From the NCBI RefSeq assembly GCF_019456655.1, contig NZ_CP080332.1, positions 1,240,001 through 1,304,000 on the forward strand: a stretch of 64,000 nucleotides of DNA. Direction: 5' to 3'. The stretch is from Mycolicibacterium diernhoferi (lineage in GTDB: Bacteria; Actinomycetota; Actinomycetes; Mycobacteriales; Mycobacteriaceae). This document shows, one piece after another, positions 31,639-38,973 of the stretch (the first letter of the stretch is position 1; each line of letters starts with the position of its first letter). The position numbers and the translations under genes were made by a program. The notes below the pieces were generated by a model, which saw only the letters and a list, made by a program, of their open reading frames with translations, was not told the DNA's origin and did not search any database.

Positions 31639-31935
31639 ATGGCAGATACCAAAGGCCCCAACCACACCCCGGCCACCGAGAAGCCGCGCGGGCGTCGTAA
31701 GACGGCCATCGGCTACGTGGTGAGCGACAAGATGGAAAAGACCATCGTGGTCGAGCTGGAGTCGCGCAAGAGCCACCCGCTCTACGGCAAGATCATCCGG
31801 ACCACCTCGAAGGTCAAGGCGCACGACGAGAACGGCGACGCCGGCATCGGCGACCGCGTCTCGCTGATGGAGACCCGTCCGACCTCGGCGACCAAGCGCT
31901 GGCGTCTGGTCGAGATTCTCGAGAAGGCGAAGTAA
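31639..31935 (+). CDS. rpsQ: 30S ribosomal protein S17
   Basis: This 98-residue S17 has an OB-fold core ([20 protein letters not shown], then [23 protein letters not shown]) and an N-terminal extension of about 18 residues. It is the last gene of this half of the ribosomal cluster. In many bacteria rplN follows directly; here about 11 kb of unrelated genes intervene. Confidence 0.98.
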
Positions 31936-31959
31936 GAGAAGCCTTCAGCTGCTATCGGA

Positions 31960-31991
31960 CCCCCGGTGACCGTGTCCACGGTGACCGGGGG
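31960..31991 (+). terminator. strong hairpin after rpsQ, probable S10 operon terminator
   Basis: A 15-base stem (31960-31974 with 31977-31991) has one mismatch and a 2-base loop, and begins 25 bases after the rpsQ stop. It is not followed by a U-tract, which is common for mycobacterial terminators. It would separate the ribosomal operon from the downstream glycan genes. Confidence 0.65.
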
Positions 31992-32195
31992 TTCGTGCAT
32001 TCCGGGCCCGATGTCGCGTTCGGGCGTGTCGCTCACCAAGATTCGCCGAAATGCCTCGGTGCGGGAGATCTGGCGCGACAGCGCCGTTGTTCGGATCGGT
32101 ACGGCCTTTGCCGTCGGTCGGCGACACGGGCAACTGCTTCCCGGTTCACGTTCCGGAAGTTTGCCCGCCCGCCCGCGTGGCCTAACATCGCGCAC
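31992..32195 (+). other. intergenic stretch before the glycan operon
   Basis: I see no gene here. Near its right end TAACAT (32183-32188) lies exactly 7 bases before an ATG at 32196, which fits a leaderless mycobacterial promoter for the small ORF and the operon that follows. Confidence 0.45.
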
Positions 32196-32288
32196 ATGAG
32201 CGTGGCGGCGGCGTCGGCTATTTCGCTTCCGCGCTGCGGCGAGGAGCGCCTGATCCATGGGCCGGTACTCGCCCCGCGTGACGCGTGA
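32196..32288 (+). CDS. possible leaderless 30-residue leader ORF
   Basis: The ORF begins MSVAAASAISLPRCGEERL and stops at 32286-32288, where TGATG joins it directly to the ATG of the next gene. A -10 box ends 7 bases before its ATG, so a leaderless transcript could be translated from the very first base and carry ribosomes onto the membrane-protein gene, which has no good ribosome binding site of its own. It has one cysteine and no repeated regulatory codons. It may be a translational coupling device rather than a functional peptide. Confidence 0.4.
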   Translation: MSVAAASAISLPRCGEERLIHGPVLAPRDA

Positions 32289-33796
32289 TGGCCACGGCGA
32301 CCACACCGGCTCCGTCCAAGCCGGCCGCCGCGCTGACCCGTTACTACGAGGTACACCCGCTCTACCGACTCGGCCTGCGCTGGCTGCTGATCGGTGCACT
32401 GACCGCGCTGGCGTTCCACGACACGTTCATCAGCCTGGCCGTCACCACCCGCGAGGGCGGCATAGGTGGCTACGTCTGGACGGTGCCGTTGGTGGCGGGA
32501 CTGGTCGCGATCAGCGTCAGCCGGCGCAAGCGCACCGAACTGCCCATCCACGACCGGCAGACCGACATCATCGTCGGCAGCATCGGTCTGGGCATGGCGT
32601 TGCTGATCCAGGCGGCGTTGCTGGAGCGCTACGCGCTGTACTTCCACCTGCTGCGCCTCGACGTCATCGCGGCCTGGCTGTTCGTGGCGAGTTGTTGTGT
32701 GGTGCTGTTCGGGCTGCGGCCGGTGATCCGATTCGCCTGGGTGTGGGCGATGTTCGCGCTGGCGTTCTCGCTGCCCTACTACCTGGCGGTGATCCTGCTC
32801 GGCGGAGGGAAGTTCGCCGCGGGTGCGGTCACCCTGCTGATCGCGGCCATCGGCACCGGCACCGCGGTGGGGCGGACATTCCGTCGCGGTGTGATCGGAT
32901 CCTTGCGGGCCTGGGTCTTCGGGTTCGCGGTACTCGTCGCGATCTGGTGGCTGTTTCCCGATGCTCCGGTGCTGGTCTATCAGCAGGTGCCCGCGGTGGC
33001 GGCGATCAGCGTCGTCGGCACCGTCATGTACCTGCAGGCCCGCCGGGGCGTGCCCAAACGGCTGCTCGACCGCAAGGTGGAACCGCTGGCCGCCAAACAG
33101 GTCTGGGCCGGTGTGCCGCTGGTGGTGGCGGTGGCGGTGGCGCTGTCACTGTGCAGCCTGCCGACCCAGACGAGCACCGTGAAGATCAGCCGACCCAGCC
33201 CGGACACCCTGGTGCAGGGCCGGCCGTTGGATCCGCCGCCGGGCTGGAAGGTGATCGAGCAGCAGGAGTTTCCGCAGGTGCGCCGACTCTACGGAGACGG
33301 TGCGGTGTTGGTCCGCCAGTACATGCTGGCCGAATCCGGGAACCCGGACTGGGACAAGCTCTCCCGGCCACGGACCATCGTGGTCGACAGCATCGTGAGC
33401 AGGCGGCCGTTCTCCTTCGGCACCATCCCCGCCCGGGTGCTGTACGGCCTGACCAGTGCGCGGATCAGTGCGCCGCGACTGATCGACCTCGACATGGGGG
33501 TACACGGCCGGTTGACGTCCGTGGTGGACGACAGGCTGCTGGTCACCTGGAACTCCGTGCAGTTCGCCTGGGGTGATGACAATCTGGCGCAACGGGTGAC
33601 GGCGTTCGCCGTCGACAACCACGATCCCGACGCGCCCTTCCCGACCCCGTCGACGAGCGTGGCGTCCAATATCCAGACCTTGATCACCTTGCTGTTCCGC
33701 GGCAACGCGGTGCTCGACCAGCGGACACCGTCGTTCAAGGACGAGGACCTGCTGCGAACCTTCACCAGGGCACTGGTGGCCGGACAATTCCGATGA
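32288..33796 (+). CDS. polytopic membrane protein of the glycan operon, function unknown
   Basis: About 502 residues. Residues ~25-300 form about eight transmembrane helices. The remaining ~200 residues are soluble and probably outside (starting STVKISRPSPDTLV, with PPPGWKVIEQQEFPQVRRLY). The layout, a membrane domain with a conserved Arg after a helix (LFGLRPVIRFAW) plus an extracytoplasmic C-terminal domain, loosely recalls exosortase/EpsI pairs. However, the exosortase active-site Cys-Ser-Gly motif is absent, so I do not assign that function. The ATG at 32288 overlaps the small ORF stop; GTG 32285 is an alternative. First main gene of an operon with BcsB-like, GT2 and GT-C proteins. Confidence 0.7.
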   Translation: MATATTPAPSKPAAALTRYYEVHPLYRLGLRWLLIGALTALAFHDTFISLAVTTREGGIGGYVWTVPLVAGLVAISVSRRKRTELPIHDRQTDIIVGSIGLGMALLIQAALLERYALYFHLLRLDVIAAWLFVASCCVVLFGLRPVIRFAWVWAMFALAFSLPYYLAVILLGGGKFAAGAVTLLIAAIGTGTAVGRTFRRGVIGSLRAWVFGFAVLVAIWWLFPDAPVLVYQQVPAVAAISVVGTVMYLQARRGVPKRLLDRKVEPLAAKQVWAGVPLVVAVAVALSLCSLPTQTSTVKISRPSPDTLVQGRPLDPPPGWKVIEQQEFPQVRRLYGDGAVLVRQYMLAESGNPDWDKLSRPRTIVVDSIVSRRPFSFGTIPARVLYGLTSARISAPRLIDLDMGVHGRLTSVVDDRLLVTWNSVQFAWGDDNLAQRVTAFAVDNHDPDAPFPTPSTSVASNIQTLITLLFRGNAVLDQRTPSFKDEDLLRTFTRALVAGQFR

Positions 33797-33821
33797 CAAC
33801 AGAACAGGAAGTCGATTCCAG

Positions 33822-35795
33822 GTGTATTCAGGTCTGACCAGGACGTTGCCGAACAACCTCTCCAGGCGCGCGTTGCCGTTGTTGGCCGCCACCCTGGTCG
33901 CCGCGGTGACGGCGCTGCCGGGTGTGGCCCTCGCCGCGCCGGAAGACGAGTTGTCACTCGCCAATTCGCCGACGCTGAGCCTGCGGACGATCGGGATGGA
34001 TTCCACCATCTCGCTGTACGGCATCCAGGGATCCCAGACCCTGTCGATACCCGTACAAGCCGGCCTGGTGCCCACCGAACTCGCCGCCACGGTGGCCCTG
34101 CCGGTCAACGCGCTCGGCGGCACGCTGGAGGTCAGCCAGGACGAGCGGATCATCTCCCGGGTGCCGCTTCCCCCGGACCGGGAGCCGGTGACCATCCCGC
34201 TGGCCGGCGCACGGATCGTGGACAACGCGGTCACCGTGCTGGTCCGCAGCTATCTCGACCTGCCCGAGGGCTACTGCGTGTTCGACGCCAACAACCCGCT
34301 GCGCCTGACCGGCGCCGAGATCCGCTACGCCGGACAGGAGATCGCGCCCACCACGATCGCCGACTTCCTGCCGCCGGTACTGCAGCGGTTGACCGTGGCC
34401 GTCCCACCCAGCCCGTCGCAGGCCGAATCCGACGCCGCGGTCCGGCTGGCCACGGCCATCGTCGCCCGCTACGGCACCCAACGCCCCGAGGTCGACATCA
34501 TCTCGACCGACGGTCCGCAGGTGCGGCCACCGGTGCCGTTGGAACGCCAGATCGTGATCCGCGAGGGCGGCTCGGCGGGGCTCAGCCTGCAGGGCCCCCA
34601 CGCCGTGCCGGCCCTGCTGATCTCGGGGACGGCCGGGGATCTCGGGAACCAGACCCGGCTGCTGTCCAGTGATCTCGCGCAGCTGGCGGTGCAGTCCAAG
34701 GCCGTGGCCGGACCGCTGTCGACGGTCCCGCAGCTGCCCAGCGACCGGACCACGATCCGCAAGCTGGGACAGCCCGGCGTCAACGCCACCGACGTCGCCA
34801 ACCCGCGGGTCATCGTCCCGCTCGACCAGACCAGGATCGGGCGTTCGGTGCAGGGCGTCCGGGTGCACCTGCAGGGCTCCTACACGCCGCTGCCCGCCGG
34901 GATGGCCGGGCAGGTCACCGTCGGGGTGTCGGGGGAGACGGTGGCACGGTGGGCGACCGAACCCAGCGGCCAGATCGACCGCTGGATCGAGGTGCCCGAG
35001 CGGTTGGTGCAGCGCTACACCAACCTGGACATCGCCGTGCAGGCCGCCGGGGACACCGGCCGGTGCGGGGAGTTCCAGCCCATCACCCTGACCATCGACG
35101 GCGAGTCCGCGGTGGAAACCACCCGGGCCGACCCGCCCGCCCAACTCGGCTTCCAGGCGCTGCCGCAGGCGCTGATGCCGCGCATCGAGGTCGGCATCGA
35201 CGGGGAGGGCGACGAGGGCCTGGAGGACCTGCGTCGCGCCGTGCGCATCGTCACCGGCCTGCAACGGTTGAGCAGCCTGCCGTTCGATACCGCGGTGGTA
35301 TCCCGCGATGCGGCGCTCGCCTCATCGAATCCGGCGATCGTGATCAGTTCGGACGGCTGGAACGACGACCGGGTCGCGCTGCCGGTCGAGGTGAACTCCG
35401 ACGGTGTGATCACCGTCGAGAATGTGGACGGCAGCGGCACTTCCAGCACGCTGGCGCTCGACCCGGCCGTCGGGTTCGGGTCGCTGCAGGTGACCTACAG
35501 CGGGGGCAGGACCCTGCTGGTCGCCACCTCCAGCAAGGCCCCCGCCGAACTCGACCGGCTGCTCAGCTGGCTGGACGCCGATGCGGGTCGCTGGTCGGGA
35601 CTGACCGGGGACGCCGTGGTGGCCATGCCCGGGCGCGAACCCGTCCAGCTGACGACGCCGGCCGCCGAGCAGGCCGTCGCCGCCGGGGACCGCAAGACGC
35701 TGTACCTGGCCATCGGTGTGGGTGCGCTCGCACTCGTGGCCCTCGGTACGTCGGCGGTCATCCTGCGCCGCAGGCGGTCCCGGGAGCAGCAGTGA
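33822..35795 (+). CDS. BcsB-like exported, membrane-anchored protein
   Basis: The 657-residue protein has a signal peptide (hydrophobic core LPLLAATLVAAVTALPGVALA, cleavage likely after ALA) and one C-terminal transmembrane helix followed by RRRRSREQQ. The arrangement and beta-rich repeats (LPVNALGGTLEVSQDERIIS, VRVHLQGSYTPLPAGM) resemble BcsB, the extracytoplasmic partner that guides nascent cellulose and activates BcsA. Its stop overlaps the start of the GT2 gene by 4 bases, exactly the pairing expected of a BcsA/BcsB complex, though in B-then-A order. The GTG at 33822 has AGGAAG about 10 bases upstream. Confidence 0.65.
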   Translation: MYSGLTRTLPNNLSRRALPLLAATLVAAVTALPGVALAAPEDELSLANSPTLSLRTIGMDSTISLYGIQGSQTLSIPVQAGLVPTELAATVALPVNALGGTLEVSQDERIISRVPLPPDREPVTIPLAGARIVDNAVTVLVRSYLDLPEGYCVFDANNPLRLTGAEIRYAGQEIAPTTIADFLPPVLQRLTVAVPPSPSQAESDAAVRLATAIVARYGTQRPEVDIISTDGPQVRPPVPLERQIVIREGGSAGLSLQGPHAVPALLISGTAGDLGNQTRLLSSDLAQLAVQSKAVAGPLSTVPQLPSDRTTIRKLGQPGVNATDVANPRVIVPLDQTRIGRSVQGVRVHLQGSYTPLPAGMAGQVTVGVSGETVARWATEPSGQIDRWIEVPERLVQRYTNLDIAVQAAGDTGRCGEFQPITLTIDGESAVETTRADPPAQLGFQALPQALMPRIEVGIDGEGDEGLEDLRRAVRIVTGLQRLSSLPFDTAVVSRDAALASSNPAIVISSDGWNDDRVALPVEVNSDGVITVENVDGSGTSSTLALDPAVGFGSLQVTYSGGRTLLVATSSKAPAELDRLLSWLDADAGRWSGLTGDAVVAMPGREPVQLTTPAAEQAVAAGDRKTLYLAIGVGALALVALGTSAVILRRRRSREQQ

Positions 35796-37294
35796 CCACG
35801 ACCGGGGGTCCGCGGGAGATCTTCGACGCCCACACCGTCACTCCCGAGCAGCAGGCGTACGCACTCGACCGGGCGATCAACGGGCTACGCGACGACGATC
35901 CCCGCCAGTCCGCATCCAAACCGCTGTTGGGTTGGCAGAAACCGGTTCTGCTCAGCCTGCTCGCGGTGCTCATCGCGCTGGCGGTCTTGTGGCCCGAGCA
36001 GACCGCGGTGGGGCTGATCGGATTCTGCACGCTGGCCTACCTGCTGACCCTGGGGGACCGGGTGCTGATCTTCCGGCGGGGCCTGGCCTCGCGGCCGATC
36101 GTCGTCCCCGACGAGGTGGCCCGGGCCATCCCCGACGACGAGCTGCCCGCCTACACGATCCTGGTGCCGGCCTACAACGAACCCGAGGTGGTGGCCGACC
36201 TCATCGGCGCGATGGATTCGCTGGACTATCCGCGGGAACGCCTGCAGGTGCTGCTGCTGTTGGAGGCCGACGATCAGGTGACCATCGACGCGGCGAAGGC
36301 GTGCGGTGAATCCGATGTCATCACCATCCTGCTGGTGCCGCCGGCCGAGCCGCGGACCAAACCCAAGGCGTGCAACTACGGGCTGCACTTCGCCACCGGC
36401 GACGTCGTCACCATCTTCGATGCCGAAGATCTGCCCGAGCCGCTGCAGCTGCGCCGGGTGGTGGCCGCGTTCCGGGACCTGCCCGACGATGTCGCCTGTG
36501 TGCAGGCCAAACTCGTCTACCACAACGGTCACCAGAACCTGCTGACGGCGTGGTTCACCGCCGAGTACGGGCTGTGGTTCGGCTACCTGCTGCCTGGCAT
36601 GATGGCCAGTTCGTCCCCGATCCCGTTGGGCGGCACCTCGAATCACCTGCGTCGCGGCCTGCTACAGGGGATCGGCGCATGGGATCCGTTCAACGTCACC
36701 GAGGACGCCGATCTGGGGCTGCGGATCGCCGCACACGGATACCGCACCGCCGTCATCGATTCGTACACGCTGGAAGAGGCCAACAGTGACCCGATCAACT
36801 GGATCCGTCAGCGGTCCCGTTGGTACAAGGGTTATCTGCAGACCTGGCTGGTGCACATCCGCCGGCCGCTGAAGCTGTACCGGACCCTCGGTCTGCGCAG
36901 TTTCATCCGGTTCACACTGGTGCTGGCCGGCACACCGATCATCGCGGTGCTGAATCTGCTGTTCTGGTTCATCACGGTGCTGTGGTTCCTCGGGCAACCC
37001 GCCGTGGTCGGTGACCTGTTCCCGGATGTCATCTATTTCCCCGCGCTGGTCGCCATGATCATCGGCAACTTCACCGTGGTGTTCATGAACCTGATCGCGC
37101 TGCGTGAGGACGACCGATCCGATCTGCTGGTGCCCGCCCTGACCGTGCCGCTGTTCTGGTTGATGATGAGCGTCGCCGCGGCCAAGGGCTGCTACCAGAT
37201 GATCCGCCAGCCCTCGTTCTGGGAGAAGACCTTTCACGGGCTGTCCGAGAAACCCGACGAGACGACCGTGCACCAGGCGGCCGGTCCGCGATGA
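35792..37294 (+). CDS. processive family 2 glycosyltransferase, cellulose-synthase-like (BcsA-type)
   Basis: This is a 500-residue membrane GT2. Two helices near residues 50-90 precede the catalytic domain: YTILVPAYNEP (about 120-130), LLLEADD, VTIFDAEDLPEP (substrate/metal aspartates, about 207-218), VTEDADLGLR (catalytic TED, about 302) and IRQRSRWYKGY (QxxRW, about 334), then about four helices. The TED and QxxRW motifs mark processive synthases that extrude the polymer. No PilZ domain follows, so direct cyclic-di-GMP activation is not expected. The DAED motif differs from classical cellulose synthase and resembles other polysaccharide GT2s. The polymer is unknown. It overlaps both neighbours by 4 bases. 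Confidence 0.85.
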   Translation: MTTTGGPREIFDAHTVTPEQQAYALDRAINGLRDDDPRQSASKPLLGWQKPVLLSLLAVLIALAVLWPEQTAVGLIGFCTLAYLLTLGDRVLIFRRGLASRPIVVPDEVARAIPDDELPAYTILVPAYNEPEVVADLIGAMDSLDYPRERLQVLLLLEADDQVTIDAAKACGESDVITILLVPPAEPRTKPKACNYGLHFATGDVVTIFDAEDLPEPLQLRRVVAAFRDLPDDVACVQAKLVYHNGHQNLLTAWFTAEYGLWFGYLLPGMMASSSPIPLGGTSNHLRRGLLQGIGAWDPFNVTEDADLGLRIAAHGYRTAVIDSYTLEEANSDPINWIRQRSRWYKGYLQTWLVHIRRPLKLYRTLGLRSFIRFTLVLAGTPIIAVLNLLFWFITVLWFLGQPAVVGDLFPDVIYFPALVAMIIGNFTVVFMNLIALREDDRSDLLVPALTVPLFWLMMSVAAAKGCYQMIRQPSFWEKTFHGLSEKPDETTVHQAAGPR

Positions 37295-38973
37295 CGATGG
37301 GTCTGGGTGGTTCGGACCGCAGACTGAAGGTCACCATCTTCTTCGTCTGCCTGGTGGTCTACATCGGCGTCGGATACTGGTTGCAGGTCCGGCAGGGCTA
37401 CCTCATGGGCGACACGCTGTCGCGGGTGGCCTCCACCCAGGCCGTGCTGTTCAGCCGGGACCCGCACCTGGCCGCGCTGGGATTCATCTTCACCCCGGTG
37501 GCGGCGATGGTGCAGATCCCGGCCGTCCTGCTCAGCCCGGTGTTCCCCGATCTCGCCGGACGTGCACTGTCCGGATCGCTGATGTCGGGACTGTTCATGT
37601 CCGGCGCGGTGGTGCAGATCTTCAGTATGGGCGCCGATCGCGGTCTGCCACGCGGATATTCGCTGACCATCACCGCCCTGTTCGCGCTGAACCCGATGAT
37701 CGTCTTCTACGGCTCCAACGGGATGAGCGAGGCCCCGTTCATCTTCTTCATGACGTGGGCGGTGCGCAGGCTGATCAAGTGGATGGTCGATGACGACGTC
37801 CACCATCTGGTGACCGCCGGCGGGGTGGCGATGGGACTTGCGTACCTGACCCGCTACGACGCGTTGGCCTCGGTCGGCGCGGCGGGGTTGGTCGTCGGCC
37901 TCACCACTTACCTGCGGGCCCGGTCCGCGCCGCGGGTGCACCGCGCGGTGATGGACGTGCTGATCGTGAGCGGACCCGGGATTCTGGCGTTCCTCGGCTG
38001 GGCCGCGGCCGGCTGGCTGATAACCGGTGAGGCGTTCGCCCAGTTCACTTCTCAGTACGGCAACGCAGCGATCATGGAACAGTCGGGTGCGGCCGCACCG
38101 ACCGCGGTCGAGGCGGTGAGCTTCTCCGCCGTGTGCATCATGTTCCTCGCACCAACCCTGTTGCCGCTGGCGTTGTGGGTGCTCATGCGGCGGTGGGGCA
38201 GGCCGAACTGGCAGATGATGGTGGTGCCGCTGGCGGTGTTCGGGGCGGTGCTCGCGTTCCAGGCGCTCAGCTACGCGCAGGGGTCCACGTTCGGGTTCCT
38301 CCGGTTCTTCATCATCGCGATACCGATGGCGGCGACCCTGGCGCTGCTGGGTGTGCCCGACGGCGTGATGGCCCGGTCCAAACGGCCCGGCAAGTGGGCG
38401 ACGGTCACCGACCCGGCTCCCGAGCGCGCTTCGGTGACAACGTATGTGGCGGTTGCGGCAACCTTCGCGGTCGGCATCCCGGTCACCGTGTTCGGCATGT
38501 CCCAGCCCGACTATGCCCCGCAGGAGTACGCTCTGGCGGCGGTGCTCGCACCCGACCCCGACGGCGTCAGCGAGCGTGCGGCCACCGAACAGCGCATTGC
38601 GCGGACCTTCGCCACCGAGCGCCGGATCGCGGAATATCTGCAGACGTTGGATCTGCCGGACAGTTCGGTCATCACCGACACCGTGTACGGGTTCGGGGTG
38701 ATCGCCGCCTCCGATCGGCCGAAGGTGTTCGTCATCCCGTCCGATCCGGACTTCACCGAGTTGCTCAACGATCCGGCGGCAAACGGTGTCCGGTACCTGC
38801 TGGCCGTGCCGCCGACCGGCCGGGGCACCGCTGACGCGCTCAATCTGCGCTACCCGACGCTCTACGATACCGGGGCCGAGGTGGCGACGCTGGAGTTGGA
38901 GATCCCCAACGACGGTGACGGGCAACCGGATTGGCGGCTGTACCGGGTGTCCGAACCGTCGGATCCGGAGTAG
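37291..38973 (+). CDS. GT-C-like polytopic membrane protein (putative lipid-linked-sugar glycosyltransferase)
   Basis: The 560-residue protein has about ten to twelve helices and an extracytoplasmic C-terminal domain (from about residue 410). The first loop contains YLMGDTLSRVASTQAVLFSRDP, an acidic motif placed like the catalytic loop of GT-C enzymes (ArnT/PMT type). GLAYLTRYDALA follows later, as in such proteins. GT-C enzymes transfer sugars from polyprenyl carriers on the outer face of the membrane. The start overlaps the GT2 stop by 4 bases. It could decorate or cap the polymer. Specific activity cannot be inferred. Confidence 0.65.
   Translation: MTMGLGGSDRRLKVTIFFVCLVVYIGVGYWLQVRQGYLMGDTLSRVASTQAVLFSRDPHLAALGFIFTPVAAMVQIPAVLLSPVFPDLAGRALSGSLMSGLFMSGAVVQIFSMGADRGLPRGYSLTITALFALNPMIVFYGSNGMSEAPFIFFMTWAVRRLIKWMVDDDVHHLVTAGGVAMGLAYLTRYDALASVGAAGLVVGLTTYLRARSAPRVHRAVMDVLIVSGPGILAFLGWAAAGWLITGEAFAQFTSQYGNAAIMEQSGAAAPTAVEAVSFSAVCIMFLAPTLLPLALWVLMRRWGRPNWQMMVVPLAVFGAVLAFQALSYAQGSTFGFLRFFIIAIPMAATLALLGVPDGVMARSKRPGKWATVTDPAPERASVTTYVAVAATFAVGIPVTVFGMSQPDYAPQEYALAAVLAPDPDGVSERAATEQRIARTFATERRIAEYLQTLDLPDSSVITDTVYGFGVIAASDRPKVFVIPSDPDFTELLNDPAANGVRYLLAVPPTGRGTADALNLRYPTLYDTGAEVATLELEIPNDGDGQPDWRLYRVSEPSDPE

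Follow-up and report, generated by a model that had tools for sequence, protein, structure and literature searches.

We analysed a 64,000-nucleotide stretch of the Mycolicibacterium diernhoferi genome (hereafter the window; the genome is one contig of 6.0 Mb), in which four co-directional open reading frames (ORFs) occupy the interval between rpsQ (31639-31935) and atsA (39089), both named from reading of their sequences. They code for an exosortase-derived membrane protein (O1), a BcsB-fold protein (O2), a BcsA-like glycosyltransferase (GT2) and a polytopic protein, probably a GT-C glycosyltransferase (GTC). We lean towards the view that the products of the four genes form a single putative membrane complex for the synthesis and export of a cell-surface polysaccharide, with O1 as a structural subunit. 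More tentatively, we propose that a catalytically dead exosortase may have become an indispensable structural part of a BcsB-type polysaccharide synthase.

A conserved four-gene set and its products

Matches of the O2 profile in named genomes, collected in a pattern-limited scan, gave 55 loci, and all four genes were matched by tblastn in 53 of them. One of the two others has O2 and O1 (L025, cut by a contig end) and the other O2 alone (L046); in four of the full loci (L014, L021, L048 and L050), one gene, as read by script, has an apparent internal stop in its aligned stretch. Because 53 of the 55 loci match all four genes and 44 include rpsQ, the four-gene set is more than a chance association. 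Of the named relatives found, M. aurum (LT549889.1) is the closest, with 84-93% identity per cluster protein; relative to it, the ratios of non-synonymous to synonymous substitution rates (dN/dS) are 0.27 for O1, 0.25 for O2, 0.13 for GT2 and 0.17 for GTC, and those of the cluster genes relative to L003 and L017 range from 0.12 to 0.32.

O1 (32288..33796, + strand; 502 residues from an ATG, with an alternative GTG start at 32285) had been considered a protein without a recognised family, a description that no longer holds. It matched an exosortase by BLASTP (4e-11 and 1e-8), and alignment with the exosortase profile gave an hhalign E value of 3.1e-38 over 477 columns, establishing its homology to the exosortase/archaeosortase family (PF09721, TIGR04178). 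The N-terminal exosortase half carries an IHDRQ.D.I.G motif, the C-terminal domain is homologous to the tail of catalytic relatives, and the structure model has a predicted local distance difference test (pLDDT) score of 86.8. In Pfam and NCBIfam scans, no exosortase family matched the window O1 and no curated cut-off was reached; among 45 aligned O1 rows, ten gave weak matches to TIGR04152 (best 0.0097), two to TIGR04151 and two to NF035943. The Cys, Arg and His columns, which we take to be the exosortase catalytic residues, are kept in all 32 aligned exosortases versus none of 47 O1 rows and none of the five rows of a divergent form, O1b (see below). On sequence grounds, O1 is thus a former exosortase that has lost its catalytic block and retained its N-terminal membrane half and C-terminal domain. 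An active-site Cys and a triad are described for ArtA in the relevant part of PMC11980579.

O2 (33822..35795, + strand) has the BcsB fold over most of its length, and comparison with BcsB structures thus bears out the likeness to BcsB proposed in the initial annotation. The solved BcsB structures that it matches come from cellulose synthases. Two hydrophobic stretches are found, a signal-like one at the N terminus (residues 20-38) and one at the C terminus (629-647) followed by a basic tail; at least three basic residues are present among the last 15 in 53 of 57 O2 proteins, as would suit the sorting signal of an exosortase target and a BcsB anchor alike. The window protein scores 13.9 bits with the Pfam BcsB model, under the cut-off of 21, and PF03170 had no match in the window's own genome. 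The Pfam BcsB model was matched by 7 of 21 aligned O2 members at E<=1, and a distant homologue in L108 exceeds the cut-off with 27.9 bits. An additional O2 copy of 566 residues in L006 (6169-7869) ends without the usual anchor and basic tail.

The adjacent GT2 gene (35792..37294, + strand) codes for a protein that falls in the Pfam GT2 families and whose best solved relatives are BcsA chains. In NCBIfam it matches CelA best (E 6.9e-20, 70.6 bits for a cut-off of 699.1), followed by the mycofactocin protein MftF (63.8 bits of 280). Across 68 aligned rows, the columns of the catalytic motifs D, DxD-like, TED and QxxRW vary little or not at all. TED (residues 303-305) and QRSRW (340-344), earlier pointed out as marks of a processive-type GT2, are invariant in all 68. 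The absence of a PilZ domain was likewise confirmed, with no PilZ match in Pfam at E<=1, and no MshE-type domain for cyclic di-GMP (c-di-GMP) was detected in the window GT2 in Pfam and NCBIfam scans.

The fourth gene (37291..38973, + strand) could be tentatively assigned through homologues of its product. One of these, adjacent to an exosortase in L152 (33% identity, E 5.9e-62), exceeds the PF13231 (PMT_2) cut-off, as does a GT-C-like homologue in L108, and profile comparison with the L108/L106 pair by hhalign gave E 3e-13. GTC is therefore probably a GT-C enzyme of PMT_2 type by descent. The GT-C-like label of the initial annotation holds through these relatives and not for the window protein itself, which fits no family.

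Genomic setting and distribution

The initial annotation correctly described four linked genes between rpsQ and atsA, and the 4-base stop/start overlaps that it indicated are exact: GTGA for O2/GT2 (35792..35795, + strand) and ATGA for GT2/GTC (37291..37294, + strand). It began the block at 32196, an ATG in a frame other than that of O1 and 89 bases before 32285; this end of the range was wrong. A strong hairpin is predicted between rpsQ and O1 (31956..31995, + strand; 75 nucleotides folded, z -4.65), possibly marking the end of the S10 operon transcript, and the cluster may therefore have its own transcript. A terminator scan requiring a T-run found no terminator, and the promoter scan recognised none for the cluster.

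Among the 55 loci, the order O2-O1-GT2-GTC is found in 38, O1-O2-O1-GT2-GTC in eight, the window's order O1-O2-GT2-GTC in five and other orders in four. Two O1 copies flank O2 in L004, L005, L006, L007, L008, L009, L011, L014 and L019, and the window has a single copy in first position. rpsQ is present in 44 of the loci. The cluster is not tied to the ribosomal site described earlier, since the retrieved stretch contains no rpsQ in the other 11 and a second, divergent copy exists elsewhere. The latter, of order O1b-GT2-O2-GTC, occurs in some mycobacteria (L097, 5172-11616; L100; L111, 5583-12043), with neighbours in L097 and L111 that we presume to be fgd1 and pta-ackA. L098 and L099 share this order, their O1b having been unlabelled by BLAST and included by position.

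Beyond Mycobacterium and Mycolicibacterium, the loci belong to Williamsia, Rhodococcus, Antrihabitans and Speluncibacter, to two actinomycete metagenome-assembled genomes and to a Kitasatospora record that is doubtful; rpsQ is absent from the locus in these named genera. The Kitasatospora arboriphila record (L041) is probably mislabelled or contaminated, because it is 93-96% identical over ~21 kb to Williamsia muralis records. In 394 further genomes of the class, the O2 profile matched in 22 and the O1 profile in 15. The GTC profile matched in 68 of 198 genomes of the genus, several of these matches being weak or fragmentary (G231, G743, G814, G826, G851 and G869). No M. tuberculosis locus is present among the 55 from the pattern-limited scan, and passages of two papers report that this species lacks BcsA and BcsB (PMC6364259, PMC12167362), in agreement with the earlier remark that the block is missing there.

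We also identified lone BcsB-like genes. Two lie between rpsQ and atsA with the other three genes missing (L093:4767-6680 and L094:6066-8114) and are perhaps remnants or reassigned parts. Others are found elsewhere in mycobacteria (L095:8460-10406, L096:6726-8654, L103:6641-8566 and L104:7215-9131), those of L103 and L104 near genes reading like polysaccharide chain-length factors.

In 12 loci from outside the genus (L040, L041, L044, L047, L048, L050, L109, L110, L129, L130, L131 and L133; L129 and L085 are one place), the cluster has a gene for a GH5-like glycosidase beside it. The Pfam Cellulase signature is over its cut-off in the proteins of L130 and L133, under it in those of L050 and L109 and absent in those of L110 and L129. 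The window's own genome harbours a copy far from the cluster (G000:C1:3860386-3861408; L140:8351-9424), 55% identical to the Rhodococcus protein of L050 and scoring 23.4 bits for a Cellulase cut-off of 23.5. The initial annotation's statement that no BcsZ gene is present is thus true for the window, and needs to be qualified by this neighbour in relatives and by the homologue elsewhere in the same genome. The GH5-like protein is analogous to BcsZ in position only; its presence hints at a beta-linked backbone.

A putative polysaccharide machine and its alternatives

In the machine that we favour, GT2 would polymerise an activated sugar on the cytoplasmic side and thread the chain across the membrane, as its BcsA type and motifs suggest. 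O2, anchored by its C-terminal helix, would take over the chain and guide it outside. GTC would add or transfer sugar units on the outer side from a polyprenyl-phosphate carrier, and O1 might serve as a scaffold that docks GT2 and GTC or holds the emerging chain. Its catalytic relatives, which occur beside the same kind of GT2, may already have held such a job. In L129 and L152, a catalytic exosortase adjoins this GT2 together with a homologue of GTC. The product may be an undescribed mycobacterial surface polymer, as proposed in the initial annotation.

The ten genomes with the deleted form of O1, out of the 15 with O1-profile matches, all belong to the 22 O2-positive genomes. The other five (G011 and four with f20 forms) lie outside that set. 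Because BcsB accompanies the deleted form and is undetected with the catalytic form, it may have been recruited while the protease function was being lost, which we offer as a suggestion rather than a result.

Several observations weigh against this suggestion or against the machine as a whole. The direct search that gave no BcsB-like match in seven genomes (G011, the four f20 genomes, G687 and G472) lacked a positive control, and the tree was made by a quick method and its root is uncertain. The f20 forms have also lost the Cys, yet no BcsB was detected with them. Twelve of the 22 O2-positive genomes are not in the O1-profile list, although this profile misses most O1b proteins, and lone BcsB-like genes occur (L093-L096). 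BcsB-like, GT-C-like and GT2 proteins are found together in L106 and L108, where no exosortase relative was found, and in L153 the GT2 that adjoins the catalytic exosortase shows only 26% identity, with no GTC seen before the contig end. The window GTC has no family of its own in Pfam or NCBIfam scans, NCBIfam matches of 26 aligned GTC rows are weak and scattered, and the GTC-like protein of L106 matched no Pfam family. Lastly, the GH5-like gene is beside none of the Mycobacterium clusters retrieved, nor is it beside the cluster in L046, L052, L053, L055, L132, L134, L152 and L153, several of which are cut by contig ends.

Three other explanations were considered. The genes might instead make a short lipid-linked envelope glycan on polyprenyl phosphate, finished by the GT-C enzyme, with O2 and O1 positioning the intermediate and no long polymer formed. 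GT-C enzymes use polyprenyl-phosphate sugars, mycobacterial envelopes abound in such glycans, and none of the four genes was recognised as coding for an outer-envelope exporter; against this, O2 matches BcsB structures of cellulose synthases, and the TED and QRSRW motifs are strictly conserved in GT2, making this explanation rather unlikely. We regard as distinctly unlikely a plain cellulose synthase producing unbranched cellulose, in which GT2 would be a BcsA minus its sensor and O1 and GTC incidental neighbours. The CelA and BcsA affinities of GT2, the BcsB fold of O2 and the Cellulase-family neighbour in relatives speak for it, but nearly all loci with O2 and GT2 also have O1 and GTC, GT2 remains far below the CelA cut-off with MftF close behind, and it has no PilZ match. 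In addition, PssD, the BcsB orthologue of Listeria, works with a GT2 for which the relevant passages leave the product open between poly-N-acetylglucosamine (PNAG), cellulose or another polymer (PMC4125290).

O1 might also have remained enzymatic, its conserved Arg and Asp residues forming a new active site together with the C-terminal domain, for instance for glycan transfer or anchoring. The columns of D103, R104, D139, R162, R422 and D439 (exosortase numbering) are kept in all 47 O1 rows, beyond the obvious needs of a passive scaffold. These columns are equally invariant in the 32 exosortases and may thus hold structural or docking residues, and O1b keeps R104 in none and D139 in one of its five rows, so that we find an enzymatic O1 very improbable.

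If the structural role of O1 in a polysaccharide synthase is correct, exosortases would take part in glycan assembly by a non-proteolytic function older than the loss of the catalytic residues, which would explain their frequent presence in polysaccharide loci. Some exosortases in such loci have no known protein targets. O1, an exosortase relative with the membrane half and the C-terminal domain but no catalytic residues, next to the kind of GT2 that its catalytic cousins adjoin, is a case in which a possible exosortase role in glycan assembly stands apart from the one in protein sorting.

Comparison with known systems

Among the matches listed in the open-licence literature, no text joins exosortases to this locus and none describes the four-gene system. 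We take MSMEG_1446, MSMEG_1447-1450 and MSMEG_1452 to be the locus tags at this site. MSMEG_1446 had no match in the open-licence papers searched; the number range MSMEG_1447-1450/1452 figures in a gene-range table of PMC4881515. A sentence in a review ascribes putative components of a cellulose synthase to M. neoaurum and M. cosmeticum (PMC6364259), and cellulose-containing mycobacterial biofilms are reported in passages that call the genes unknown (PMC6364259, PMC12167362). The locus offers a testable candidate synthase for this cellulose-type biofilm question, though probably not for M. tuberculosis. In M. marinum, epsH codes for a glycosyltransferase with a BcsA-type domain match that is linked to the biofilm matrix; it differs in that its closest M. 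tuberculosis protein is Rv2957 and that no BcsB partner is mentioned in the relevant passages (PMC12167362).

The window shares with the cellulose synthase BcsA-BcsB the BcsB fold over most of O2, a GT2 with the D, D, TED and QxxRW motifs and the adjacency of the two genes. It differs by the lack of a PilZ match in GT2, by an O2 score under the Pfam cut-off and by the addition of an exosortase-derived protein and a GT-C protein, no further Bcs gene being recognised among the four. In the Listeria pssA-E operon, the GT2 PssC similarly adjoins the BcsB orthologue PssD, but the system has its own c-di-GMP receptor, PssE, and the passages concerned mention no exosortase relative (PMC4125290). B. 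subtilis also matches the Pfam BcsB model. We presume this match to be a Yda protein. The Bacillus ydaJKLMN exopolysaccharide operon (PMC13274460) differs from the window by a potential c-di-GMP receptor, YdaK (PMC9800504), and the relevant passages of PMC13274460 do not mention an exosortase relative.

Related machines elsewhere may be c-di-GMP controlled through a built-in sensor, because the GT2s of two other actinobacterial genomes, L106 (3102-8707) and L108 (743-6304), coded with BcsB-like and GT-C-like proteins, carry an N-terminal MshE-type c-di-GMP motif domain (44.5 and 37.3 bits, respectively, for a cut-off of 38).

Small exosortase-like proteins adjoin a different GT2 in L087 (1-2034), L088 (1246-3248) and L090 (997-3634). 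Those of L087 and L090 match XrtP/R/S models, and in L090 a short protein with a terminal hydrophobic stretch and a basic tail precedes the exosortase-like protein and the GT2. The exosortase-GT2 pairs XrtG/TIGR03111 and XrtP/NF053846, as paired from their NCBIfam names, also place an exosortase-family protein beside a GT2, an arrangement found with the catalytic form in L129, L152 and L153. The window GT2 is far below the cut-offs of both GT2 models (33.4 of 364 and 33.2 of 520 bits, respectively), and its locus differs from these pairs by the loss of the catalytic residues of O1 and by the addition of BcsB.

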